Positions 19,976-58,824 of a DNA stretch of 64,000 nt are shown here, in pieces. The stretch covers positions 21,892,535-21,956,534 of the forward strand of contig NC_045149.1 of the NCBI RefSeq assembly GCF_008831285.2, written 5' to 3'. This stretch comes from Nymphaea colorata. Taxonomy: Eukaryota; Streptophyta; Magnoliopsida; Nymphaeales; Nymphaeaceae. Within the stretch, counting starts at the first letter, position 1. Each line of letters begins with the position of its first letter. Made by a program: the position numbers and the translations under genes. Below the pieces are notes generated by a model, which worked only from the letters and a program-made list of their open reading frames with translations, made no database searches and was not told the origin of the DNA.

Positions 19976-20314
19976 TGTCCGTTACAAAGAGATAAGGAGG
20001 GGATCTACCATATTTGGGAAGGAGATATCTACAGATTTGGGTGTTTCCTCAATCAGCATAGATTTGGGCGTTTCCTCATTTTGGCGTCTTCTTCTGCATG
20101 ATTGTTGGAATCAATCCCAACGATATCGACTGGAGGTTTTTTGTAACTTCCTCATAAAGATGTTTGTAACTGTAAATGCGTGAGAAATATTATGAATAAG
20201 AAAGCTCATTTTCTCCCGTGGATGTAGGCTACAAGCCGAACCACGTAATATGCTGCCTTCTTCTGCTCCTTTCTTGTTTGCATCCTCTGTTTCTTCATTA
20301 TATGTGTTCTAACA
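19976..20314 (+). repeat. Element A 5' LTR
   Basis: 339 bp, TGTCCGTTAC...TTCTAACA. It lacks about 40 bp present in the 3' LTR; the missing part contains the TATA-like CTATATAAAG. Confidence 0.92.
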
Positions 20315-20327
20315 TGGTATCAGAGCA
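20315..20327 (+). other. Element A primer-binding site
   Basis: TGGTATCAGAGCA directly follows the LTR and is complementary to the 3' part of plant initiator tRNA-Met. Confidence 0.9.
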
Positions 20328-20669
20328 TGGCTTTCCTGAGCATCTGGAGTTGATTCATGTGAGAGCAGAAGAATAGAGAGTTGCAGACGATGATTCCAGC
20401 AACGCTCTCCTGTATTTTTCCAACCATGAATTGATTATTGTTGTTCTTTGCTGAGAAACCTCCAATGAGAAGGATTTCCCATTCAGCCTTCCGCTTCGGG
20501 TGGTTTGGCTGGAGTGCTCTACCTCCTCAGCACCAAAAACTATCTTGCAAAAGGCGATGGCGTCGGTGGCCTTGAAAGCCCCAACGACGAGGTTCGGCCT
20601 GATCGTGGAAAAAACTGGGCCCTTCCAACCCTTGTTCTCTGCTTGTGTCCCGTTCTGCTCTTATCTACT

Positions 20670-24635: not shown

Positions 24636-25014
24636 TGTCCATTACAAAGAGATAAGGAGGCGATCCACCATATTTGGGAAGGAGATATCTATAGATTTGA
24701 GTGTTTCCTCAATCAGCACAGATTTGGGTGTTTCCTCATTTTGGCGCTCTCTTCTTCATGATTGTTGGAATCAATCCCAACAATATCGGCTGAAGGTTTT
24801 TTGTAACTTCCTCATAAAAATGTTTTCATCTAAAGATGTTTGTAACTCTATATAAAGTGTGAATCCCTACTATAAATGAGTGAGAAATATTATGAAGAAG
24901 AAAACCCTTTTTCTACAGTGGATGTATGGTACAAGCCGAAACACGTAATATGCTGCCTTCCTATGCTCTTTTCTTATTCCCATCATCTGTTTCTTCATTA
25001 CATGCGTTCTAACA
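24636..25014 (+). repeat. Element A 3' LTR
   Basis: 379 bp, TGTCCATTAC...GTTCTAACA, preceded by a purine-rich tract (TTGAAGAGGAGAC). It keeps the CTATATAAAG box that the 5' LTR has lost. Confidence 0.92.
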
Positions 25015-30884: not shown

Positions 30885-31327
30885 ACTAAATTCTCAGAAG
30901 ATAAAATGCTGAGAGTTTTTATGTTTGTAGTTGATTATATTATGAAAATAAAAAGCTGACTGGAACAATTTTAAATTTTGAGAGGAAAAAAGATGGTCTT
31001 GCAGATTATACTAAAAAACTAAGCAAGATTTTACTAAATTCTCAGAAGAAAAAATGCTGTTAAGAGTTTTTATGTTCGCAGTTGATTATATTATGAAAAT
31101 AAAAAGCTGACTGAAACAATTTTAAATGCTGAGCAAAAGATGATCTTGCAGATTACACTACAAAAGCAAGCAAGATTTTACTAAATTCTCAGAAGATAAA
31201 ATGCTGTTAAGAGTTTTTATGTTTGCAGTTGATTATATTATGAAAATAAAAAGCTGACTGAAACAATTTTAAATGTTGGGAGGACAAAAGATGGTCTAGC
31301 AGATTACACTAAAAGACCAAGCAAGAT
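30885..31327. repeat. Tandem repeat, 3 x ~147 bp
   Basis: Units start at 30885, 31033 and 31180 with ACTAAATTCTCAGAAGA and share TTGATTATATTATGAAAATA, AAAAGCTGACTG and 'CTTGCAGATTA'. Copies differ by small indels. Non-coding; it could be a short local satellite. Confidence 0.9.
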
Positions 31328-31429
31328 TAATACTTGTCGTCATGGATGACGCCTGGTGGTATCAAGTGTAGGCGCAAAAAAATGAAAAGGTAAAAAAGAA
31401 AATTGACATTCATATTAATCATTTGGTTT

Positions 31430-32166: not shown

Positions 32167-32583
32167 ATGGCAGCTAAAGCCATAGCCATACTAGCTCTCC
32201 TGGCTATCCTCTCCTCTCACGCCGCCGCGGTGGATGTGCTCTACAGCGGGCAGACTCTCTATGGAGGCCAGTTCTTAGTGAATGGGCCTTACAAGTTCAT
32301 CATGCAGGCTGACTGCAACTTGGTGCTCTACGTCAACGGAAACAGGGTGCTGTGGGCTTCCGGCACCAACGGCAAAGGCAGCAACTGTAGGGCAATTCTA
32401 CAGGCAGACGCCAACTTGGTTGTGTACACGGGAGGTAAAGCTCTTTGGGCAAGTGGGACGGCCAGAGGCTCCGGCAACTACCGCCTGAACATGCAGGGAG
32501 ATGGTAACGTGGTGATCTACGACGCTGCTGGACATGCTCTGTGGGCTACCAATACGGTTCAACATAGGAACAGGAAAATATAA
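32167..32583 (+). CDS. GNA-related mannose-binding lectin, A-type
   Basis: 138 residues, intronless. The signal peptide is about 21 residues (MAAKAIAILALLAILSSHAAA), with the same four-residue gap as 26014. Three intact sites lie at 47-55 (MQADCNLVLY), 79-87 (LQADANLVVY) and 110-118 (MQGDGNVVIY); Cys50 and Cys74 are present. The mature protein is almost identical to 15389; differences include Gly for Ala before GQF, V for A in NRVLWAS, and the C-terminal HRNRKI. The stop is followed by the 15389-type 3' UTR with AATAAA at 32632, block D and a lectin fragment, so at least 1.3 kb downstream of the start was copied together with 15389. Promoter features are intact. It is expected to be secreted and to bind mannose glycans. 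Confidence 0.95.
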   Translation: MAAKAIAILALLAILSSHAAAVDVLYSGQTLYGGQFLVNGPYKFIMQADCNLVLYVNGNRVLWASGTNGKGSNCRAILQADANLVVYTGGKALWASGTARGSGNYRLNMQGDGNVVIYDAAGHALWATNTVQHRNRKI

Positions 32584-32631
32584 CTCGCTTCGCTTTCTGT
32601 AGGTCCAGTGCCCGTTTCTCCGCTTCCCGTG

Positions 32632-32637
32632 AATAAA
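32632..32637 (+). promoter_or_regulatory. Poly(A) signal of lectin 32167
   Basis: AATAAA in CCGTGAATAAAATATATG; a second AATAAA follows near 32683, as after 15389. Confidence 0.7.
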
Positions 32638-32804
32638 ATATATGTACTGTTGCTTCCTACATATACGGGTCAGGACCGCCCGCGAATAAAATATGCACTG
32701 TTGCTTAGTTCCTATATGTATTTGTAGATTGCGTCATGAGTTTCATATCCTCAACGACTTTGATCGTAGTTCTCAATAAAATTACATATTATCTAGACTC
32801 AAAA

Positions 32805-33228
32805 GTCATAATCTGATCTCTTCTTTTTTTTCTTTGAAGAAAATTTCACATGGCAGGAATTGCAAGAATATGACAGTATGACCTTCACAGATACAAATTC
32901 TGTGAATTAATTTCTACCTTTTCATATGTACAAGATTGCACATGTGATCTACATCTACAAGGTTCGAGACTTACACAAGGTGTGGGCTTTTACATGTATA
33001 TAATCTGAATTTAAACCGGATGTATAGGCAACAATACCACATTTCTGGGTTTAGAAGTATGTTTCCAAGCAATACTAGATCTAGAAAACACAGACAAAAA
33101 TGTTAGTTCTACAAAGTGATGCCCAAGTCTAATTAGTTTTGCAAAATTAAATTGTACAGGGTCCTTAAATATTTTTATTGGGAATTGTATAGCAAGATAA
33201 AAATATAATAATAACAGTGTTTACAACT
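32805..33228. repeat. Lectin 3'-flank block D, copy 5
   Basis: Nearly identical in order and wording to copy 3 (16048-16465), including 'GACAGTATGACCTTCACAG' and 'ACACAAGGTGTGGGCTTTTA'. It runs directly into the lectin fragment at 33236. Confidence 0.8.
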
Positions 33229-33235
33229 AGCAGCA

Positions 33236-33433
33236 TTGTCCTCTACCTCCTCTACTGAAGCAGGGCGCTTGTCGGCTTCCAGCGCCGACGGAAAAGGCGC
33301 CAACTGTAGGGCAATCCTGCAGAGAGACGTCAACTTCGTCGTCTGCTCAGCAAATGGTGCCCAAATGTGGTTTGTCTACTCAGGTAATAAAGCTCTGAAC
33401 GAGTCGGGTCGGACGGTGACGCCCCATAATTAA
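33236..33433 (+). pseudogene. Lectin gene fragment (middle part)
   Basis: Homolog of 16471-16645. It shows 'TCCTCTACCTCCTCTAC', 'AAAGGCGCCAACTGTAGGGC', 'CAGAGAGACGTCAACTTCGT' and 'TTTGTCTACTCAGGTAATAA', with a repeated second-site segment (two VVCSA/VYSGN-like pieces). There is no start, first site or third site. It is probably dead; the open frame has no promoter or ATG of its own. Confidence 0.8.
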
Positions 33434-34143: not shown

Positions 34144-34366
34144 TGTTGGGAGATTTGTGGAAGAAGATTGTCATTGCCAAGATCAAAAAGAAATCAGCAA
34201 AATCCTGGTGTTACGATAAGATTGTCCCCTTCTCCCTTAGAATGTAACAGAGCAGAAAAATAAGAAAAATCTTTCTTCTTCCTCCGTGGATGTAGACCTC
34301 TCGTCGAACCACGTTAAATTTGTGTGTTTTGTCTATGCATTGCTGTCTCTCCCATGGTTTTCATCA
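34144..34366 (+). repeat. Element B 5' LTR (internally deleted)
   Basis: 223 bp, TGTTGGGAGA...TTTTCATCA. It lacks about 79 bp present in the 3' LTR, from GATTGAATTA to GTATAAAACC, which includes the TATA-like box. Confidence 0.92.
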
Positions 34367-34380
34367 TGGTATCAGAGCAG
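34367..34380 (+). other. Element B primer-binding site
   Basis: TGGTATCAGAGCAG, complementary to initiator tRNA-Met, directly after the 5' LTR. Confidence 0.9.
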
Positions 34381-34464: not shown

Positions 34465-34794
34465 GCCTCTGCAACATCGTCTTCATCATCGTTCGCTTAG
34501 GCCTTCCTCTTAGCTGCTTTCGCTACATAGGTGCCTTGTCAGATTCAGACATCGTCTTCCTCTTATCACCAGCAGCCCTTCCCACCGTGGCGACGGACTT
34601 GCTGTTCGTCTTCCTGAACTCTTCCATAAAAACGAAGAAGGTGCTAGGCGGCCGCTTCAGATTGTTAGGGCCCCTCCCTTTCTTAGCAGCACTCTTCCCA
34701 ACTCGGTCGCTCCTAGAGGCCTTCCTCTTCGTTCCCAGCTTGTTATCGTTTTTTTTTTTTGCCGTTTTTTGGCCTTTGCCTTCCCTCCTTTCAT
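34465..34794 (-). pseudogene. HMGB: Captured HMGB gene fragment (antisense in element B)
   Basis: On the minus strand a start codon at 34794 opens MKGGKAKAK, the typical plant HMGB amino terminus. After a frameshift in an A-rich tract comes a lysine-rich basic region (KLGTKRKASRSD, VGKSAAKKG), then HMG-box sequence: LKRPPSTFFVFMEEFRKT, SKSVATVGRAAGDK and TMSESDKAP. About seven residues are missing after EEFRKT. Another 1-nt loss follows SDKAP, then VAKAAKRKA in a second frame, a stop, and an acidic stretch (NDDEDDVAEAE) like the HMGB acidic tail. The pieces run together without introns, which suggests capture from spliced mRNA. HMGB proteins are nuclear DNA-bending proteins; this copy is broken and non-functional. 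It lies between the PBS and gag. Confidence 0.82.
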
Positions 34795-35619
34795 CGGAAA
34801 TACCTAAAAACAAAGAGAAAGGGCGATAAAAGAAGGCTTCACTTGTGAGAAAGGCAGGCTGAACCACCCTCCGTCTGCAAGCTTCAAAACACAGGCGTTG
34901 TTTCTACCGACCTCCTCTCGTTGTGAAATTGGACGTGCAACATCGCCTGGAAGTCAGGCTTCCAACAGACCGGTGCTCGACCAGAACTGACGTCGGAGCT
35001 GGCCGAAATCGCATTTTTTTTTCGGCCGCTCGTTTTTTTCTGCGTCCCTGTTCCTGCTTCCCCTGTTCCTGCGTCTGAACAAGGAGTGTCGCTGGCACTT
35101 TATTCTTCGCAGCAGATTTCTTCACGACGGGATTCGTTGGTTGATTACATCTCCAAGCAGCAAATTTTTTCGGGTAACTCGTGTGCCTGTCATCTTTGCG
35201 AGTTTCTCCTAGAGCGCTGAGAAGAGACGGTTTCCATCGACCCTTGTTCGGCTGCCAAGACTCTGCTGTTTTCACCAATACCACCAGCCGTCGAGAAGGA
35301 GTCCAGATTGCCTAGTATCCGCTCCTGCATCCTTAATAAAAAGATTTAAGGAGCTGTAAAGAGGAACCGCTGGATTTCTTAAGTTCCGGCTATTTTTCTC
35401 TGTGCCGTGTTGCCCAAGGTTGGTTCCTCTCTGAGAAATCTGGTTTCTCCTCCTAACGGCCATCATTTTCTGTCGTTCCTTTTTCTTTGAACTCTTAACA
35501 GCGAGTGATCAACAAAGACAACAAACTATAAACTATAGACGCCTTACCGAGCAAAGCTGAAAATCACCAATACTCTCTTGGGTCCAACTTGAGCAAAGAG
35601 GTCGAATACATAAACGGGA

Positions 35620-38600
35620 AGATCTTAAATTTGATGATTGGCAATCTCAAAATTATATGGTAATGTCTTGGCTCATTAACTCTATGGAGTCTTCCATTTC
35701 AAATCTGTTTATGTATCAAGAAACTGCAAAGGAGATTTGGGATGAATTAAAACAACTCTTTTCTGAGCAAAACAATCTTGCACGGGTTTATCAAATTCAA
35801 GTCAAAATTGCCAATCTTGTGAAAGGAGACAAACCGCTGAATCTTTACATAGGAGAACTTAAAAAGCAGGTTTGATGAACTTCTACAATATAGGCCTGCT
35901 ACGATTGATCCAGATACCTACAAAATTCGATTTGAGAAAGACAAAATTTTTAAGCTGTTGGTAGGATTAGGAGCTGAATATGAAGGTATTAGAAGTCAAA
36001 TTCTTAACACCACTCCTCTTCCCAACTTAAACAACGTCTGTCAAATGATACAAAGGGAGGTTGCACGAAGACAAGTTATGAATTTCAATACCAAAACTGA
36101 AATTCTTGAAGAAAGTCATGAAAAAATGGCATGTGTTGCTCAAACCGAACTTGCCAAAGGAGATCAAAAACTTCCAAACATCAACAAGTCTCCAAACACC
36201 AATTATCAGAAAGGAAGAAAGAAATTTAAATGCACCCACTGCAAGCGATCTGGTCACACTCGTGAAAAGTGCTGGGAACTGGTTGGGAGACCCACAAGAG
36301 ACAAAGCGACGTCTTCCACCAACTCAGCCAACTTCGTCACCAAGGATGATCTTGAAAAATTCTTTCAAAAGTTCGCCAAGACCAATTTGATCTCATCTCA
36401 GCCCGTCAACAATTCTGAAGGTAACAACTTTGCTTTGATTGCTACATTCAATCATTCTACATGGGTTAGTGATACAAGGGCCACCGATCACATGCCTAGT
36501 GACTTAACCAATTTGATCAATCTTGACGAAACAAAAAAACGACCAGTTTTTACTGCTGATGGATCACCAATTATTGCTGAAGGATACGGTGAAACTAGAT
36601 TCTTTAAAAAGGGGCAAAAATCCCAAGTCTTATGTATTTCTAAACTTTCAGCAAATCTCATATCAATGAGCAAATTAACAAAGTCTCATAATTGTTTGGC
36701 TGTTTTTTCCTCAAAGGATGTAATATTTCAGGATCTTGTGACGAAACAGGAGATTGGTAGAGGGCATGAGCAGAATGGGTTGTACGTGATGGATAAAAAT
36801 AGTTGCAGCTTCATGGTGAATGATCAGCAAGATTGGAGTTTTCACTACTGGACTTGGCACGCCAGACTTGGTCATATCTCTGACCAAAATTTAACTTGTC
36901 TTATTCCTCATCTTATAGTTGGAAATAATTCGTGTGATGCTTGTGAATTTTCTAAATCCACAAGACTGCCGTTCCAATCCTCTGCTGAAAAATCTAAAGA
37001 AATTTTTGATTTTGTTCACTCAGATGTTTTGGGACCAGCCCCAGAAGTGTCATATTCTGCATTTAGGTACTATGTTTCCTTTATTGATGATAAGACTCGC
37101 ATGACTTAGCTGTTTTTTCTCAAGTATAAGAGTGAAGTTTTTAGTGCTTTCAAAGAGTTTTTCAAAATGGTACATACTCAATATGGAGTAAAAATTAAAA
37201 AACTTCGCTCTGATAATGGGGGTGAATACGTGAACGATGCTCTTGAAAACTTTCTGAAAGAGGAAGGAATACAACCTCAATACTCATGTGCAGGCACCCC
37301 ACAGCATAATGGAGTTGCCGAACGTAAAAATAGGCAACTACTGAATATTGTTCGATGTCTTATGATTCATATGCATGTTCCACTTCGTTTTTGGAATGAC
37401 GATGTTGCTACAGCTTGTTATATTGCCAACAGGGCACCTAGGTCTAGCATCAAAAATCAAGTTCCCATAGAACTTCTCCTTAATAAAAAAGTTTCTATAA
37501 AGCATCTTAAAGTTTTTGGATGCAAGTGTTATGCTCATATACAAGAAAAATTCAAGAACAAATTTGAAAAACGTGTTGTCAAATGCATCTTTCTTGGTTA
37601 CTCTAGTAGAAAGAAATGGTATAAGTGTTATGATCCAGTTACTAGAAAATTACTTATATCTCGTGATGTGAAGTTTTTTGAACAGGAGTACTTCTTTGAT
37701 GATCAAAGACAGGGGGAGACGAACAAGTACTTCTTTGATAATCAAAGACAGGGGGAGACGAACATCACTGATTCTATCCTTCAACCCGTATTGCCAGTGG
37801 TTGAACTTAGCAATGAAGTGTCTTACGCAAGACAACTCCGCTCTCAAAATGCCTCAAATGATGTATCCTTGCTTCCGCCTCAAAGAACTCAACAACCTGA
37901 TATCAACACCAATCCTCTCACCTCTCCCACTGAACCAAACTCCAATTTCAGCAATTCCAGCCAAACCTCTCAAGAAAATTCTAGTAGACGGTCCACTCGT
38001 CCTACTAGACCACCAACCAAATTTAGTGACTACTATACCTATCTTACAGCCAACAATAATTACTCCATTGATCAATACCTAACTTTTGAAAATCTGCCCA
38101 TTCACTATAAATCTTATATCCTAAATACATATTCTCAACATGAACCAAAAACTTATGAAGAGGCAAATACAGAACCAGAGTGGCGTAATGCAATGGAAGA
38201 AGAACTTGCGGCACTAACAAAAAGTCAGACATGGGATCTAGTTCCTTTACCCGATGGTAAGAAGCTGGTTGGATGCAAGTGGGTTTATCGAATAAAATAT
38301 AACAGCAATAGAAGTGTAGAGCGCTACAAAGCTCGTCTCGCCGCAAAAGGATTTACCCAAACCGAAGGTATTGTATAATGAAACCTTTGCGCCTGTTGCA
38401 AAGATGAGCTCTGTCCGAACTTTAATTTCTGTAGCAGCAAACAAAAGATGGCCTCTCACTCAATTAGATGTGAAGAATACTTTTCTTCATGGGAAACTCA
38501 ACGAAGAAGTCTATATGGAGGGTCCAAAAGGTATAAAAAATGAGCACAAGTATGTATGTAAGTTGAAAAAGGTGCTATACGGGTTAAAACAGTCACTACG

Positions 38601-39672
38601 AGCTTGGTTCTCTCGTCTTTGTGATGCTCTTATTAGACTGGGTTTCAAGAAAAGCAGTGCTGACCATACTATGTTTACATATTCAAAAGGTTCTAAAATT
38701 TGTATTCTCCTTGTCTATGTAGATGACATAATAACGACATGTGATGATATTGACTTTATGCCGCGCGTGAAAGACTACCACAATCAGCTGTTTGAAATCA
38801 AGGATTTGGGAATACTAAGATTTTTCTTAGGGATTGAAGTTGCTCATTCAAATAAAGGAGTTTTCCTTTGCCAAAGGAAATATACATTAGATCTATTGAA
38901 AGAAACCAGGTGCTTGGGTGCTAAACCTGCAGAGACTGCTCTTGAAGCGAATTGTAAATTAAAGAAGGATGAAGGTGAACCTGTCAAGAATGTTCAAAGC
39001 TTTCAGAAACTTGTTGGTAAGCTCATTTATTTGACTGTTACAAGACCAGACATATCTTATGTTGTAAGTCTTATTAGTCAGTTCATGCACTTTCCTAGAT
39101 CATCTCTTGTTGAAGCTGCTCACAGAATTTTGAGATATTTGAAAAGATGTCCTGGAAAAAGAATTTTAATGAAACATGATCTACCACTAGATGTCGTGGG
39201 TTATACTGATGCAGATTGGGCAGGAGATCCAAATGATAGAAGATCTACTTATGGTTTTTGCACCTTTATTGGAGGAAATCTCGTAACCTGGAGAAGCAAA
39301 AAACAATCTGTAGTTGCTCGATCAAGTGTTGAAGCAGAATATAGAGCAATGGCTGGATGCACATGCGAACTCGTATGGATTAAAGCTCTTCTGAAGGATA
39401 TGAATATTGATGTGCGAGAACCTATAAAGCTTATATGCGACAATATAGCTGCAATTTATATTGGGGCAAATCCGGTCTTCCATGAAAGAACCAAACACAT
39501 TGAGATTGATTGTCATTTCATTAGAGAAAAGATTCAAGATGGAACTATCGAGACATGTCATGTTAAAAGTGAAAATCAGTTGGCTGATATTTTCACAAAA
39601 AGTCTGGCACGTGAGAAACATCAAGGCATTGTAAACAAGTTGGGACAGATCAATATCTGTCCTCCAACTTGA
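35620..39672 (+). pseudogene. Element B gag-pol remnant
   Basis: Aligns throughout with the Gag-Pol of element C. The gag N-terminus is missing or scrambled; homology starts near 35625 (FDDWQSQN..MSWLIN). A frameshift lies near 35870 in gag. The zinc knuckle CTHCKRSGHTREKC is intact. The protease motif is changed (SDTRATDHM for VDSGATDHM). The integrase zinc region and catalytic D, D and E positions are present (HSDV, SDNGGEY, VAERKNR), but a TGG-to-TAG stop interrupts at 37107. A 2-nt deletion near 38370 breaks the frame early in RT. RT itself (YVDDI near 38720) and RNase H (TDADWAGD) look intact to the end at 39672. A 42-bp unit (TACTTCTTTGATGATCAAAG and on) is duplicated in tandem near 37688-37771. 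Confidence 0.92.
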
Positions 39673-39681
39673 GGGGGAGAT

Positions 39682-39983
39682 TGTTGCGAGATTTGTGGAA
39701 GAAGATTGTCATTGCCAAGATCAGAAAGAAATCAGCAAAATCCTGCTGTTACGATAAGATTGTGATTGAATTAAAAAGGGAAAGAGATCTCTTAATTCCT
39801 AGAAAGATGAGACAATGGCTCTCATTCCAAATGTATAAAACCCCTTTCTGCCTTAGAATGTAACAGAGCAGAAAAATAAAGAAAAAACTTTCTTCTTCCT
39901 CTATGGATGTCGACCTCTGGTCGAACCACGTTAAATTTGTGTGTTTTGTCTATGCATTGTTGTCTCTCCCATGGTTTTCATCA
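39682..39983 (+). repeat. Element B 3' LTR
   Basis: 302 bp, TGTTGCGAGA...TTTTCATCA, complete, with the TATA-like GTATAAAACC near 39834. Confidence 0.92.
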
Positions 39984-41010: not shown

Positions 41011-41366
41011 TGTTAAAGAATAAGATTTTTGGATCTTTCATCTGGATTCAAAATCCAGCGCGTTGAACAATGTCTCTCGACGTTCTATGTCTTTGTATTC
41101 TACATTCTTGTAAACTATGCTATGGTATTCTATGTCCTTGTGATATGTGATAAGTCTCCTAAGATTCTATAATTGAAGAGTCTCTTAGGATTATGCAATT
41201 GTAACTGATTGAGTGTATTATAAATATGGGCCATGTACACCATCTGGTCATGGCCTCTTCTCCTTAGCCTCTCCCTATCTCATTCTCTCTCTCTATCTTT
41301 CTGCATGAATACAAATTTTTAGTTATACATTATTGGTGTCAGATTTCTATCATGGTATCAGAGCAG
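41011..41366 (+). mobile_element. Isolated copia LTR with PBS (truncated element)
   Basis: A 342-bp LTR from TGTTAAAGAATAAG to TTTCTATCA (41011-41352) is followed by TGGTATCAGAGCAG, the tRNA-Met PBS. No gag-pol homology follows, so the element was truncated just inside its 5' end. Its LTR sequence differs from those of A-D, indicating another family. Confidence 0.75.
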
Positions 41367-44352: not shown

Positions 44353-44366
44353 GTGGTATCAGAGCG
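44353..44366 (+). other. Element D primer-binding site
   Basis: GTGGTATCAGAGCG, complementary to initiator tRNA-Met, next to LTR 2. Confidence 0.85.
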
Positions 44367-46363
44367 AGGTTTGGTTTAAGAACTGGTTTTAATAGTGAGT
44401 TTAATTGGGCGAATAATATTTTGCAATTATGGCGGCATTAGCGGTTGCATTAAATAATATTGAGAAGCTTAACAATAGCAATTATAGCTATTGAAAATCT
44501 TGCAGTCTTATTTTCTAGGACAGGAATTATGGGAGATAGTTTTGGGATCAAACACTAATATTCCTGTCGACGAGAAAGCAAAGAAGAAATGGATGATCAA
44601 AGCAAGGAAAGCTATATTCGCAATTAAGGTATCAATTGAGAATGATTTATTAGAGCATATATGTGACGTTAAGACTCCTAAAGAAGCATAGGATGTTTTT
44701 GCAACACTATTTGCTCGAGCTAATGATGCCCGCCTACAATTGTTAGAAAATGAATTAGCTACATTAACTCAGGGAAACATGTCGATATCAAAGTATTTTA
44801 TGAAGGTTAAAAATATTTGTAGGGAGATTTTTCAAATTGACTCTGAGTATAAGATTAGTGAGGCCCGTATGTGGAGAATTCTTATTCGCGGGCTTCATCC
44901 AGAATTTGGCAGTTTTATAATTGGTGTTCAAGGTTTGCCAGTTCAACCAACATTATTGGAGTTGGAGAATCTCTTGATCAATCAAGAAACTTTAGCGAAG
45001 CAAATGGCTAGTCTTTCACTCAAAGTAAATAATGAGGAAGCGTTGTTTAGTAAGGGTCAGAGATCACGCTGGCCAGCCAAACCAGTCATAAGGTCTCCAT
45101 GTACAAACATTAAGGACAAGAAAGAGAAAAATGTAGAAAAGAAAAAAAGAGAAACTATACAACAGTAGAGACCAAAGAATAAGTGTTTTAGATGTGAAAA
45201 ATTGGTCATTTTGCTCGTGACTGCAGAATCAAAATAGATGAAGGAAATGCAGTCATGACATGTAAGCAACATGGGGGAGTTAATGAGGCTAAACAGAAAA
45301 GTTCGTTTTTATACTCAATGGAAGTTAAAGAGGACGTTAAACAAGAAAGATGTAATTCCACCCATATAAAACATGTGAAAGAAAAAGAAGAGAATATCAA
45401 TTATCAAACTGATTGGATAATTGATTCTGGATGTTCAAACCATATGACTGGTGATGAGAGCAAGTTCTTAAGTATGAAAGAATATGATGAAAATCGAGTT
45501 GTTGTTACTGCTAACAACACAAAGCTCCCAGTGGCACATATTGGAAAAGCAGAGGTTGTAGCCAACTTCAGTAAAGACCGAATTTTACGGAACATTTATC
45601 ATGTTCCAAGAATGACTAAGGACTTGTTGTATGTGCTACAATTAACAGCTTTAGGGCACTATGTTTTGTTCGGCCCAAATGATGTGAAAGTTTATAAAGA
45701 TGCAGATGTTCAAGGGACTCCCATGTTTGAAGGAAGAAAAATTGAGTCAATATATGTCTTGTTAGCGGAAACAACATATATTGACAAAGCAAAGAAGCAT
45801 GACACTTCGGAAATCTGACATGAGAAACACGCTCATGTAGGATACAACAAACTTCGGGAGATGTCTAATAAAGGCCAATTGATTGGCATGCCTAAGCTGG
45901 ACGTACGAACAGACAAAGTATGCACAAGATGTCAATATGGAAAGGCGCATAGGAGGTCATTCAAAGAATCAAAGCATAGAGCTAAAGCGTCATTCGAGCT
46001 TGTGCATTCAGATGTCTTCGAAAAAGTACCAGACCCATCAGTTGGAGGTAAGTGGTATTTTATCACATTTATTAATGATTTTTCAAGACATACTTGGGTC
46101 TATTTTATGAAAGAAAAGTCTGAAGCACTTGAAAATTTTAAGGAGTTTCGCCATATGGTAAAAAATGAACTTGGGTATAAAATTCGGTGTTTACGCACTG
46201 ATGTAATCACCCCAAATTTTTCTAAAGGACTATGATGTTTTATCCAAATGCAAAATTCAAATTTATGCACAAGATTTCCAAAATACTACTCTCAGATCCA
46301 AATTAAATCCAAAATACTACTTTTAGATCCAAAACCCAATTTCAGATCCAAATCAATCATTTA

Positions 46364-46776
46364 AGACCGATTTGCCCCTCCTTTTGACCAAAAAACCTTC
46401 TTTTAGAGGGTGATTTTAGTGTTTTTTAAACAAGACCGATTTGTCCCTCCTTTTGACCAAAAAAACCTCTTTTAGAGGGTGATTTTAGTCTTTTTTTAAA
46501 CAAGACCGATTTGCCCCTCCTTTTGACAAAAAAACCTCCTTTAGAGGGTGATTTTATTCTTTTTCAAAGAAGACCGATTTGCCCCTCCTTTTGACCAAAA
46601 AAACCTTCTTTTAGAGGGTGATTTTAGTCTTTTTCAAACAAGACCGATTTACTCCTCCTTTTGACCAAAAAACCTTCTTTTAAAGGGTGATTTTAGTCTT
46701 TTTTAAACAAGACCGATTTGCCCTTCCTTTTGGCCAAAAAATCTCTTTTTGGAGGGTGATTTTAGTCTTTTTAGGT
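46364..46776. repeat. Tandem repeat, 6 x ~69 bp
   Basis: Units start at 46364, 46433, 46503, 46571, 46641 and 46710 with AGACCGATTTGCCC and carry CCTTTTGACCAAAAAA and 'TTAGAGGGTGATTTTAGT'. The array lies just upstream of the LTR's TATA box, the position of enhancer repeats in LTR U3 regions. Confidence 0.93.
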
Positions 46777-46815
46777 CAAAAAATTCAAATTTTGGGTTTT
46801 GGCTCCAAAATCCTC

Positions 46816-53304: not shown

Positions 53305-53683
53305 TGTTGGAAATTTCTAGAAGGGAATCTAGTGCGCCAAGATAGGAGGCAGATCACGAAGAACACAGATCATGCAAAAGATCAGGAAAGAAGATCAAGT
53401 CAAACAAAAGTCAAGAGCAGATTAAGATTCTTTGAAAGAAATAAGAGTTTATCTTAATTCCTTTTTTTCCTTGCTGTGAAGATCTAGCTTATCACGTTCC
53501 TGTTTCTTTGCTCCCATCTTCTATATATAGAGTTGTACCGTGGTTCTGAAATATGAATGAAAAACAGACTTTTCCCTTCTCGTGGATGTAGGCTTAAAAC
53601 TGCCGAACCACGTAAATCCCTCTTCTCTCTCTCTTCTGTTTTTATCTAGCTTTCTTTGCTCTTGGATACAATGGTTTTCAACA
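53305..53683 (+). repeat. Element C 5' LTR
   Basis: 379 bp, TGTTGGAAATTTC...GGTTTTCAACA. TATA-like TCTATATATAGAG is near 53520. (T)n and (CT)n runs lie towards the end. Confidence 0.95.
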
Positions 53684-53697
53684 TGGTATCAGAGCAG
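53684..53697 (+). other. Element C primer-binding site
   Basis: TGGTATCAGAGCAG, complementary to initiator tRNA-Met, directly after the LTR. Confidence 0.92.
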
Positions 53698-54272
53698 GTT
53701 CTTGAGAGAGAGTGCTTCATAGTGTTTATTGTTCCTAAAGAACGCTAGTCACCAGAAGTATCACTCTGATCAGAGGATTGTTCGTTAGTCTTCTAAGTCT
53801 GATTGAAGACAAATTACAGAAGAAACCAGAGCTTCGCCTGAGAACAGCAATCCTTCTGGCAAGGTTCTGCCTTTACGGTAACAGTTTTTTTCCTAAATCT
53901 CAGAATTGGGGATTTTCTATGCTTCGGTGATGTATTCTCATCATCGTCTGGATTAACTTCACCATTCATTGATTCTCGTTGGAGGAAGAGAATTTCTGTT
54001 TAAAAAGAAAAACAGAGACCACGCGAGGAAGTTCGTTTAATCATTCTCTGGCGACGTCGGTATTTTTTGGGATTTTCAGTTGTCGAGCAGAGTCCTCTTG
54101 AATCCTCCCAGGTCCTTTGGTAGTCATCTGTGACTAACGACTGAAATTTATCACCCATGCCCAAAGTTGTTTGCGCTCGGTGTTTTTTTGGATCTTGTTC
54201 AGTTTGATCTCTTGTGTATTTAATTTTTTGCCCTGCTATTTGAGGAGTCGGTGTGCTTTTTTCTCTGTCTTC

Positions 54273-57200
54273 ATGGAAGAATCTAATCAAAGCAGCAATG
54301 TCAAAGAAAATCCAAGAAACAACGATCATAACGTCAACACGTTGAAGATTACATCTACTCTTCTCAATGGCAAAAATTACTTAAGCTGGGCAAAAGCTGC
54401 TCGTCTGTTTCTTAGTGGACGATCAAAACTTGGATTCATCAATGGTTCTATAAAACAACCTGATAAACATGATCCAAAATACCAAGAGTGGGAGTCAGAA
54501 AACGACATGATTATGTCGTGGTTAATCAATTCTATGGAGCAGCCAATTGCTAATTTGTTTCTTTACCAAGAAACAGCTAAAGAGGTCTGGGATACCTTGA
54601 AAGAGTTGTATGGAGAACAAAACAATCTGGCTCGTATTTATGAAATTCAAATGGAAATTTCTAAGCTTACTATGGGAGATAAGCCAATTCAACTTTATCT
54701 TGGTCAGCTACGAAGTCTCTATGATGAACTCTTACAATACCGACCAGCCACCTTTGATCCTGATGTTTATAAACATAGATTTGAAGAAGATAAGATCTTC
54801 AAAGTTCTTGCTGGTCTACCTGATGATTACGAAGCAGTTCGAAGTCAGATTTTGATGACGTCTCCTCTTCCAACATTTAACAATGTTTGTCAGACCATAC
54901 AAAGAGAGGTAGCCCGTCGAAAAGTTATGAACGTGTCCTCAAAAATTAGTAGTGAAGAAAGTCTTGAGAAAATGGCATGTTATGTTAACAATAAAAAGGG
55001 AGACTCCAAACTACTCAATGATAGCAACAATGGCCAGAGAATCCGAAGCAGATTCAAATGCAATCACTGCAAGAAGATTGGACACACACGTGATAGATGT
55101 TGGGAGTTAATTGGTCGTCCAACGAAAGAGAAATCATCATCCAAACAATCAGATCTAGCCAACTTTGTGACCAAGGAAGATCTTGAAAAATTCTTTCAAA
55201 AGTTTTCAAAGACGAATCTGGTTTCATCTCAACCAGTTGAATCTGAAGGTAAGAATCATGCTCTTATTTCTGTTTCTGCTGCTTCAACTTGGATTGTTGA
55301 CTCTGGGGCCACCGATCACATGACTGGAAATTCTTTTAAGATTACTAGTTTAGACAAAGAACAAAAACAACACGTCTTTACTGTAGATGGGTCTCCTATA
55401 GCAGTTGAAGGAGTTGGTAGAACTACTTTTCTTGAAAAAGATATTAAATCTAGTGTTCTCTATGTTCCTAAGATATCTGCCAGTCTAATGTCTGTGAGCA
55501 AATTGACAAAAACTCATAATTGTTTGGCTATTTTTTCTTCAAAGGAGGTGATTTTTCAGGATCGAAACTCGAAGAAAGTGATTGGTAGAGGACGCGAGCA
55601 TGGAGGTCTCTATATGATAGATACGTGTGATGCTAGTTTCCTTACTTACAGAGAAAAAGAATCTGAGTACCAAAAGTGGCATGCTCGCCTTGGACATGTC
55701 TCTGATAGGAGTTTAAAGCAGCTGGTTCCTAATCTCACCATTGAAAGCAGGGCATGCGATGCTTGTGAGTTTTCCAAATCAACAAGGTTGCCGTTCCAAC
55801 CTAACAGTGAGAGATCTTCTAATTTTTTCAGTTTAGTACATTCTGATGTGTGGGGGCCTGCCCCTGAGGATTCTTATGCTGGTTTTAAGTATTATGTTTC
55901 ATTTATTGATGATAAGTCTAGAATGACATGGATCTATTTTCTCAAAAATAAAAGTGAAGTTCCCACATTGTTTGAGGAATTTTATAACATGGTTCTCACT
56001 CAATATGGTTCTAAGATCCAAAAGCTTCGATCAGACAATGGAGGAGAATATGTTAATGACATTCTAAAAAATTTCTTGAAAGAAAAAGGCATCCAACCTC
56101 AGTATACATGTGCAGGAACCCCTCAACAAAATGGAGTTGCAGAACGAAAAAATCGTCAGTTACTCAATATTGGTCGATCTATTATGATGCATATGAATGT
56201 TCCTTCACGTTTTTGGACTGATGCTATTGCTACAGCTTGCTATTTAAGCAATAGAACTCCAAATTCGAGTATAGATGATAAAATTCCTATTGAATTTCTT
56301 TTAGGAAGGGCAGTTTCAATTCAACATCTCAAAGTTTTTGGGTGCAAATGTTATGTGCATGTTCAAGAAAATTTTAGGAACAAGTTTCAGAAACGAGCTA
56401 CAAAATGTATTTTTCTAGGTTATTCTAGTAGAAAAAGAGGATACAAGTGTTATGATCCTATTTCTCGGAAACTTCTTGTTGCTCGTGATGTTAAGTTTTT
56501 TGAGCAGGAGCCATACTTTGGTGTCTCAATTCAGGGGGAGCAAGTAAGTAATGAAGATTTGCAGCACAGTGAGCAGGTTCAGCCTCTTGTTGATGTTTTT
56601 AACAACACCTCTGTTGTTGATCACCAGTCTATAGAATCTAACCCCATAGATCATAGAGAGGGATCTATCATGGAAGAACCTGAACAAATATTCCCAGAGA
56701 TCAATGTATCTGAATCAACCCAAAGCCAAGGTCCTGAGCTACCTATTCGTCGTTCCACTCGTAATACCAGACCACCAATAAAACTGAGTGACTACTACAC
56801 CTACTTGACTGCAGGCAAAGTTCATTCAATAGAAAAATATGTAACATTTCAGACCCTATCTCTTCCGTACCAAACCTATGTGTTAAACACTTACTCCCAA
56901 ACTGAACCAAAAACCTTTGATGAGGCAAACAGGGACAGTAGGTGGAGAGAAGCTATGAAAGAAGAACTTACTGCGTTGCACAAAAATCAAACTTGGGATC
57001 TTGTTCCTCTCCCTGAAGGAAAGAAATTGGTTGGATGCAAGTGGGTGTATAAACTAAAGTTTAAAAGTGATGGGACAGTGGAACGGTTCAAGGCTCGTCT
57101 AGTTGGAAAGGGTTTCATGCAAACAGAAGGAATAGATTACAATGAAACATTCTCTCCAGTTGCCAAAATGAACACCATCAGGATTTTACTTTCTGTTGCA

Positions 57201-58436
57201 GCTAATAAAAGGTGGGAATTAATGCAGCTTGATGTGAAAAACGCTTTCTTGCATGGAGAACTTCATGAAGAAGTTTATATGGAAGTTCCGCAGGGTGTTC
57301 CAAACCCAAGTGGGTATGTCTGTAAGTTAAAAAAGGCTTTATATGGGTTAAAACAGTCTCCTCGTGCTTGGTTCTCTCGCTTAAGCGATGTTCTTACTCA
57401 AATTGGTTTTAAAAGAAGTTCAGCAGATTATACCATGTTCACCTATACTAGAGGATTGAAAATTGTTATCTTACTTGTTTATGTAGATGACATTATTTTG
57501 ACAGGAGATGACACAGAATTCATGGCGCAAGTCAAACAACTCCTTAATAAGCAGTTCGAAATCAAAGATCTAGGTGTTTTAAGGTATTTTTTGGGTATTG
57601 AAGTTGCGCACTCTGACAAAGGTATTTTTATTTGCCAACGGAAATATATTCTTGACCTATTAAAAGAGACAGGATACATTGGAGCTAAGGCTGCTGACAC
57701 TCCTTTGGAACTAAACTGCAAACTGCGTAAAGAAGATGGAGACATTGTTGAGAATATTCAAGGTTTTCAGCAACTTGTTGGTAAACTCATATATTTAACT
57801 GTGACCAGACCTGATATTGCTTATGCTGTTAGTTTAATAAGTCAGTTCATGCATAAACCAAGATCCACACATGTTGAAGCTGCCCATAGAGTGTTGAGGT
57901 ATCTAAAAGGGACTCCAGGAAAAGGAATACTCATGAAACGTGATCAACAACTAGAAGTAATCGGATACGCCGATGCTGATTGGGCAGGAGATCCAAATGA
58001 TCGCAGATCTACGTCTGGTTACTGCACATTTGTTGGAGGAAATTTGGTAACATGGAAAAGCAAAAAACAAACCATTGTAGCCAGATCAAGTGCTGAAGCT
58101 GAATACAGAGCAATGGCAGCTTGCACTTGTGAACTTATGTGGGTCAAAGCAGTACTAAAAGACATGAACATTGAAATAAAGAAAGCTATGAGCTTATTGT
58201 GCGACAATATGGCTGCAATATATATTGGAGCTAATCCTGTCTTTCATGAGCGCACCAAACATATTGAAGTTGATTGCCACTTTATTAGAGAGAAAGTTCA
58301 AGATGGTACCATCACTACTCCGCACGTTAAAAGCGAAAGGCAACTAGCTGATATCTTCACTAAGAGTCTTGCAAAGGACAAACATCTTTACATATCAAAC
58401 AAGTTGGGGCAGATTGATATCTGCTCACCAACTTGA
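54273..58436 (+). CDS. Ty1/copia Gag-Pol polyprotein (element C)
   Basis: 1387 residues in a single frame, the usual copia arrangement. I start at ATG 54273 (MEESNQSS); the frame is open upstream but without an ATG. Domains with approximate residues: Gag with a UBN2-like capsid part (30-220); zinc knuckle CNHCKKIGHTRDRC (about 262); aspartic protease VDSGATDHMTG (about 342); GAG-pre-integrase zinc region, H..H...C..C (about 470-500); integrase core with HSDVWGP, SDNGGEYV and GVAERKNR supplying D, D and E (about 522, 587 and 622); reverse transcriptase with YVDDIILTGDD (about 1069); RNase H with ADADWAGD (about 1234) and the final LADIFTKSL region. All catalytic motifs are intact, so the element could be autonomous. 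It acts in cytoplasmic virus-like particles and the nucleus to copy and integrate itself. Confidence 0.96.
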   Translation: MEESNQSSNVKENPRNNDHNVNTLKITSTLLNGKNYLSWAKAARLFLSGRSKLGFINGSIKQPDKHDPKYQEWESENDMIMSWLINSMEQPIANLFLYQETAKEVWDTLKELYGEQNNLARIYEIQMEISKLTMGDKPIQLYLGQLRSLYDELLQYRPATFDPDVYKHRFEEDKIFKVLAGLPDDYEAVRSQILMTSPLPTFNNVCQTIQREVARRKVMNVSSKISSEESLEKMACYVNNKKGDSKLLNDSNNGQRIRSRFKCNHCKKIGHTRDRCWELIGRPTKEKSSSKQSDLANFVTKEDLEKFFQKFSKTNLVSSQPVESEGKNHALISVSAASTWIVDSGATDHMTGNSFKITSLDKEQKQHVFTVDGSPIAVEGVGRTTFLEKDIKSSVLYVPKISASLMSVSKLTKTHNCLAIFSSKEVIFQDRNSKKVIGRGREHGGLYMIDTCDASFLTYREKESEYQKWHARLGHVSDRSLKQLVPNLTIESRACDACEFSKSTRLPFQPNSERSSNFFSLVHSDVWGPAPEDSYAGFKYYVSFIDDKSRMTWIYFLKNKSEVPTLFEEFYNMVLTQYGSKIQKLRSDNGGEYVNDILKNFLKEKGIQPQYTCAGTPQQNGVAERKNRQLLNIGRSIMMHMNVPSRFWTDAIATACYLSNRTPNSSIDDKIPIEFLLGRAVSIQHLKVFGCKCYVHVQENFRNKFQKRATKCIFLGYSSRKRGYKCYDPISRKLLVARDVKFFEQEPYFGVSIQGEQVSNEDLQHSEQVQPLVDVFNNTSVVDHQSIESNPIDHREGSIMEEPEQIFPEINVSESTQSQGPELPIRRSTRNTRPPIKLSDYYTYLTAGKVHSIEKYVTFQTLSLPYQTYVLNTYSQTEPKTFDEANRDSRWREAMKEELTALHKNQTWDLVPLPEGKKLVGCKWVYKLKFKSDGTVERFKARLVGKGFMQTEGIDYNETFSPVAKMNTIRILLSVAANKRWELMQLDVKNAFLHGELHEEVYMEVPQGVPNPSGYVCKLKKALYGLKQSPRAWFSRLSDVLTQIGFKRSSADYTMFTYTRGLKIVILLVYVDDIILTGDDTEFMAQVKQLLNKQFEIKDLGVLRYFLGIEVAHSDKGIFICQRKYILDLLKETGYIGAKAADTPLELNCKLRKEDGDIVENIQGFQQLVGKLIYLTVTRPDIAYAVSLISQFMHKPRSTHVEAAHRVLRYLKGTPGKGILMKRDQQLEVIGYADADWAGDPNDRRSTSGYCTFVGGNLVTWKSKKQTIVARSSAEAEYRAMAACTCELMWVKAVLKDMNIEIKKAMSLLCDNMAAIYIGANPVFHERTKHIEVDCHFIREKVQDGTITTPHVKSERQLADIFTKSLAKDKHLYISNKLGQIDICSPT

Positions 58437-58445
58437 GGGGGAGAT
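58435..58445 (+). other. Element C polypurine tract
   Basis: GAGGGGGAGAT overlaps the gag-pol stop codon and abuts the 3' LTR; it primes plus-strand synthesis. The same tract precedes the 3' LTR of B. Confidence 0.85.
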
Positions 58446-58824
58446 TGTTGGAAATTTCTAGAAGGGAATCTAGTGCGCCAAGATAGGAGGCAGATCACGA
58501 AGAACACAGATCATGCAAAAGATCAGGAAAGAAGATCAAGTCAAACAAAAGTCAAGAGCAGATTAAGATTCTTTGAAAGAAATAAGAGTTTATCTTAATT
58601 CCTTTTTTTCCTTGCTGTGAAGATCTAGCTTATCACGTTCCTGTTTCTTTGCTCCCATCTTCTATATATAGAGTTGTACCGTGGTTCTGAAATATGAATG
58701 AAAAACAGACTTTTCCCTTCTCGTGGATGTAGGCTTAAAACTGCCAAACCACGTAAATCCCTCTTCTCTCTCTCTTCTGTTTTTATCTAGCTTTCTTTGC
58801 TCTTGGATACAATGGTTTTCAACA
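58446..58824 (+). repeat. Element C 3' LTR
   Basis: 379 bp, identical to the 5' LTR except for one base by eye. Confidence 0.95.

Follow-up and report, generated by a model that had tools for sequence, protein, structure and literature searches.

The leader of element B, a degenerate Ty1/copia LTR retrotransposon, encodes plant HMGB sequence on its minus strand, as judged by similarity searches, and this piece of a host gene lies antisense to the element between its PBS and gag. Element A, a relative of B in the same window (i.e., the whole 64-kb stretch of DNA that was analysed), carries a second antisense host piece in its own leader, apparently independent of the first and taken from a different gene. 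That LTR elements capture host exons is already known from Bs1, from TRIMs, and from rice and sorghum; antisense placement in the leader, twice over, is unusual. That two unrelated host genes are found antisense in one short interval shared by two related elements suggests that a distinct step of capture is involved, and we consider it probable that the HMGB piece was captured by reverse transcription of some kind. Copia leaders are accordingly suggested as a place to look for captured sequence.

The HMGB fragment in the leader of element B

Element B has the order of parts that defines a copia element, i.e., LTRs, PBS and gag, then rve plus SH3, then RVT_2 and the 3' LTR. An 80-nt stretch with the sequence TATAAA, present in its 3' LTR (39682-39983, plus strand), is missing from its 5' LTR (34144-34366, plus strand), and the PBS (TGGTATCAGAGC, 34367-34378, plus strand) is of a type that we take to be that of the initiator-Met tRNA. 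The gag-pol region (35561-39672, plus strand) is broken, with Pfam matches to Retrotran_gag_2, gag_pre-integrs, rve and RVT_2. The two LTRs are identical at 212 of 223 aligned positions, besides which the 5' LTR shows gaps of up to 78-80 nt, and a perfect 5-bp target-site duplication is absent, the flanks CTTTT and CTTCC showing two C/T differences. Measured as the distance between the PBS and a conserved gag motif, which was placed by eye, the leader of B is 1194 nt long, compared with 430 nt in A and 662 nt in a third element, C.

Plant HMGB proteins have an N-terminal basic region, one HMG box and an acidic tail. On the minus strand of the B leader, a 126-aa stop-to-stop ORF (34526-34903) includes part of an HMG box and matches Pfam HMG_box at E=6.6e-4 with 20.5 bits, which is below the curated cut-off of 25.4. 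When the same ORF was searched against the PDB, 13 distinct sequences were matched with E no higher than 1; the best (3.7e-4) was an SRY/HMGB1 fusion, aligned over its HMGB1 part, and the others are all annotated as HMG proteins. Since 54 leader ORFs were scanned in all, the Pfam value is modest on its own, and we base the identification on tblastn, in which three plant HMGB query sequences, written out for the purpose, matched the window with scores of 59.7-70.9 bits (E=1.7e-13, 2.3e-17 and 1.2e-17). When the B leader was block-shuffled 200 times, tblastn scored 24.6 bits at best, and no HMG match in Pfam was obtained from five shuffled versions of the ORF. A chance resemblance of a Lys-rich, low-complexity antisense reading to HMGB, which the sub-threshold Pfam score and the number of ORFs scanned might have invited, has in our estimate a negligible probability and was rejected on the shuffles and the E-values; the box motif KRPPSTFFVFMEEFRKT, moreover, is not of low complexity. 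The preliminary description had placed an HMGB-like stretch antisense between the PBS and gag of a copia element, and Pfam, PDB and tblastn searches all bear this out. There is no second copy of the fragment within the window.

The fragment as a whole spans 34476-34794 on the minus strand, of which 34529-34777 was aligned by tblastn and the remainder was assigned by eye. The start, MKGGKAKAK (34768-34794), does not share a frame with the HMG box. A second frame holds the basic stretch and the box, with TAKKKNDNKLGTKRKA (34718-34765), the box motif (34607-34657) and a stretch beginning NSKSVATV that runs down to 34529; according to the tblastn alignment against the query HMGBs, the box is six residues short just before this last stretch. 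A third frame contains YVAKAAKRKA (34500-34529) and NDDEDD (34476-34493), which are separated by a stop and which we take to be HMGB-like, both being assigned by eye and unscored. Thus, where an intact functional HMGB gene would have a single ORF from start to tail, the fragment has three frames, an internal deletion and a stop, and it is a decayed, HMGB-like pseudogene piece. Of the protein it keeps the basic region and the N-terminal portion of the HMG box, together with a tail that is down to six residues in another frame. The HMGB start, Lys-rich region, box and acidic tail described earlier are indeed on the minus strand, but they are broken up by the frame changes, the deletion and the stop, and the "acidic tail" is a short hint at most.

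A second antisense fragment and the leaders of related elements

Element A is bounded by LTRs at 19976-20314 and 24636-25014, which are flanked by a perfect 5-bp target-site duplication (GCAAA/GCAAA) and are identical at 305 of 339 aligned positions, and its PBS lies at 20315-20326 on the plus strand. Antisense in its leader is a fragment of an At5g48480-like (glyoxalase-like) host gene (20476-20660, minus strand). The N-terminal domain of that family, Pfam At5g48480-like_N (PF22656), was matched at E=3.6e-8 with 33.5 bits, above the cut-off of 27, over residues 24-55 of the minus-strand ORF 20358-20660; against the Arabidopsis structure 1xy7 in the PDB the match was weak (E=0.24). By eye, the fragment continues in another frame with NHPKRKAEWE, which presumably resembles the same At5g48480-like protein, and this part gave no match when searched alone. 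Including the by-eye part, 149 nt separate the PBS from the homology in A; the corresponding distance in B is 150 nt to the scored alignment (34529) and 97 nt when the by-eye parts are included. No direct repeats of at least 12 nt flank the fragment in the A leader. As evidence on introns the A fragment does not have the length to be informative, and the name At5g48480 was absent from the papers found in a literature search for its exon structure. In A as in B, the identity, orientation, place and decay of the host piece are shown, and the two inserts are alike in being antisense, in lying in the PBS-gag interval and in deriving from the N-terminal coding part of a gene.

Six exact PBS sites were found in the window, where 0.22 would be expected even when up to one mismatch is allowed. 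One of these perfect copia-type sites, at 41353-41364, has LTR-like sequence before it and, by eye, is not followed by gag. Elements A, B and C are related members of one copia group by their DNA identity, which in the main alignable pieces is 69-72% between B and C and 65-71% between B and A; a further element, at 44354, whose leader is short, appears by eye to belong to another copia group. Element C (53305-58824) has LTRs identical at 378 of 379 positions, a target-site duplication (GGTTC/GGTTC) and a 1432-aa stop-free stretch, and it looks recent and possibly intact. No host fragment was recognised in its PBS and leader (53684-54272, plus strand). Searches for relatives in viral_contigs and genome_contigs retrieved none, as expected for plant sequence.

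To survey the leaders of A, B and C, every stop-to-stop ORF that reached 25 aa (9, 30 and 15, respectively) was compared with Pfam. Host families were found at E<1e-3 in two of the 54 ORFs, namely HMG_box in B and At5g48480-like_N in A, both antisense. The At5g48480-like_N match is readily sustained against a scan of 54 ORFs, whereas that to HMG_box depends on the tblastn result. Plus-strand leader ORFs of the three elements showed no host domain at this threshold, the plus-strand family that did appear being gag itself, in an ORF running from the A leader into gag; an additional sense-strand ORF was consequently discarded as an explanation. Two weaker matches were not counted. Vicilin_N, in a minus-strand ORF of the C leader (54003-54272), reached E=0.004, below the cut-off, and a PDB search of this ORF with E up to 1 found nothing; five shuffles of it gave nothing below 0.074 in Pfam, and taken together with the five shuffles of the B ORF, none of the ten shuffled proteins fell below 0.07. 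The other, Kv2channel in a minus-strand ORF of the B leader (E=0.0052), was likewise below the cut-off. With two cases the orientations would agree by chance one time in two, and the antisense pattern is thus to be read as a lead and not as a statistic. When the three leaders were aligned with one another, nothing scored above shuffles, as is expected at such divergence, and, the leaders being unalignable, the insert-free state of a leader cannot be demonstrated from them.

We would also like to note that in A as well as in B a TATA-bearing stretch is missing from the 5' LTR and kept in the 3' LTR. The gaps in the 5' LTR amount to 40 nt in total in A and to about 80 nt in B, and there are two cases only. 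The young element C keeps the TATA stretch in both LTRs.

Origin of the antisense fragments

From the observations on A and B we infer capture during reverse transcription, a spliced template, a plus-strand switch and an order of events. In full, this reading holds that cDNA of a spliced host HMGB mRNA was acquired during reverse transcription, before integration, with a plus-strand switch as the likeliest step, and we give it just under an even chance. That LTR elements take host mRNA into their particles and switch templates onto it is a published model of capture (PMC5408686, from the part of the article available).

Plus-strand strong-stop transfer takes place at the PBS. After that transfer, the plus strand would enter the internal region of the element, and the growing strand may then have jumped to a host mRNA carried inside the particle. 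Copying this mRNA toward its 5' end would yield antisense cDNA, after which the plus strand would have gone back to the minus-strand DNA of the element; the B copy would then have integrated with the fragment, which would have decayed afterward. We consider a plus-strand switch the likeliest step because the insert is antisense and sits between PBS and gag. As a claim in its own right, capture of HMGB by a plus-strand template switch is possible, with a probability that we put somewhat short of even. A run to the 5' end of the mRNA would be expected to leave N-terminal coding parts, as are found in both elements; that the N-terminal side points toward gag is a mere consequence of the orientation and does not count as further evidence. 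On the other side of the balance, there are only two cases, the target-site duplication of B is imperfect, and in both elements the host homology stops short of the PBS.

The case for a spliced template comes from the HMGB fragment. Over 249 nt (34529-34777), HMGB coding sequence was aligned by tblastn in one frame with no intron-like interruption. Plant HMGB genes are multi-exon; in the text available for each study, those of tomato have 5-14 exons, most having seven (PMC11172549), and those of watermelon 6-16 (PMC12786108). A spliced mRNA template is favoured because the 249 nt are uninterrupted in a gene family of this structure. The preliminary description had called the fragment intron-free and read it as capture of a spliced host mRNA. 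The lack of an interruption holds over these 249 nt, whereas splicing itself is deduced from the exon structure of plant HMGB genes; the capture reading gains weight from the independent antisense piece in A, with a later DNA insertion still to be set against it. On the minus strand, a pyrimidine-rich tract that ends in TTTTTAG, 9 nt ahead of the HMGB ATG, could be 5' UTR or an intron remnant.

In the alternative of DNA insertion, the host fragments entered as DNA, after or between insertions, for instance as a retroposed copy, as filler in break repair, or within a nested Pack-type element or Helitron. A and B are old, decayed copies by the divergence of their LTRs (305/339 and 212/223 identical), which would leave time for later insertions, and the leader of B is long at 1194 nt, against 430 and 662 nt. 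Furthermore, a 13-nt direct repeat (copies at 34470-34482 and 34936-34948, alike at 12 of 13 positions) brackets the HMGB fragment in the manner of a target duplication (bracketed stretch 34470-34948, plus strand), and removing one 466-nt unit from the leader leaves approximately 728 nt. Dinucleotide shuffling, however, produced such a repeat pair in 17 of 300 copies, and what was to count as a bracket was set only once the pair had been seen, so the repeat is not beyond chance; it could be template-switch homology, the target duplication of a later insertion, or chance. The poly-T that a retroposed copy should have at the PBS-side edge is not there, by eye. Inverted repeats do not bracket the fragment either, the B leader having one 15-nt pair, 80% complementary, with one arm inside the fragment; there is no inverted-repeat pair in the A leader, and none of at least 60 nt within 28-46 kb. 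Finally, the window lacks a second copy of the fragment, the A leader lacks flanking direct repeats of at least 12 nt, and two independent events would be needed in the same short interval and in the same orientation. We hold DNA insertion to be unlikely, though worth serious weight.

Capture could also have taken place in minus-strand synthesis, by a switch onto a natural antisense transcript or a backward read-through transcript of the host gene. Template switching in cDNA synthesis is the published model (PMC5408686, in its available part), and the outcome would look identical. Nevertheless, this route requires antisense RNA from each of two unrelated host genes, intronless in the case of HMGB, and we consider it quite improbable.

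Extending the plus-strand reading from one element to the group, one may ask whether the leader in this copia group is repeatedly rebuilt by antisense host cDNA, acquired by plus-strand switching near the PBS and running to mRNA 5' ends. We regard this as distinctly unlikely. If it were true, related leaders would hold different antisense 5' gene pieces, and their orientation would be a fossil record of plus-strand, not minus-strand, switching.

It had also been proposed that transcripts of B could pair with host HMGB mRNA, and in a stronger form the antisense fragments would have been retained because element transcripts silence or otherwise affect host HMGB. The orientation is certainly antisense, and small RNAs are described, in the available text of the study, on some LTR-captured genes of rice and sorghum (PMC3726574). 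Yet the fragment in B is short, frameshifted and deleted, and the 5' LTR is without the 80-nt stretch that contains TATAAA. The pairing proposal is thus unsupported, and retention for antisense control is in our view highly improbable.

Comparison with known captures and other features of the window

The Bs1 element of maize is a close parallel, being an LTR element with transduced coding pieces from more than one host gene (PMC13317346, as far as its available text goes), and its captures comprise exons only (PMC4717578, available part). Elements A and B, too, are LTR elements and between them hold coding pieces of more than one host gene. In Bs1, however, three pieces lie in one element and form a chimeric gene (PMC13317346, same text), whereas A and B have single, broken, antisense leader pieces in two elements. 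TRIMs of soybean and Medicago likewise contain host fragments, which are intron-free, within LTR elements with 5-bp target duplications; in contrast to the gag-pol copia elements A and B, they are small and mostly present in two or more copies (PMC4717578, in the part available for both statements).

A likeness of another kind is found in aORF-3R of Grande, RIRE2 and Retand, which is coding-type sequence antisense to gag-pol (PMC7264820). It lies between pol and the 3' LTR, is conserved across copies and has no host counterpart (PMC7264820), while the sequences in A and B occupy the PBS-gag interval and can still be recognised as decaying host genes. The LTR-captured genes of rice and sorghum resemble those of A and B in being host genes inside full-length LTR elements (Jiang and Ramachandran 2013; PMC3726574, available text). 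The words antisense, orientation and intron are absent from the main text of that paper as available (PMC3726574), and orientation is consequently not comparable. In the titles and the openings of abstracts of the open papers that were searched, antisense host-gene pieces in related copia leaders were not seen described.

Several other features of the window were seen. Diverged direct repeats occur at 30907-31328 and at 32351-33342, the second pair being mannose-binding-lectin-like by eye; for 33215-33430, no Pfam match was obtained with E up to 0.1. At 46230-46780, an imperfect repeat array with a unit of approximately 60 bp interrupts another copia element, by eye.
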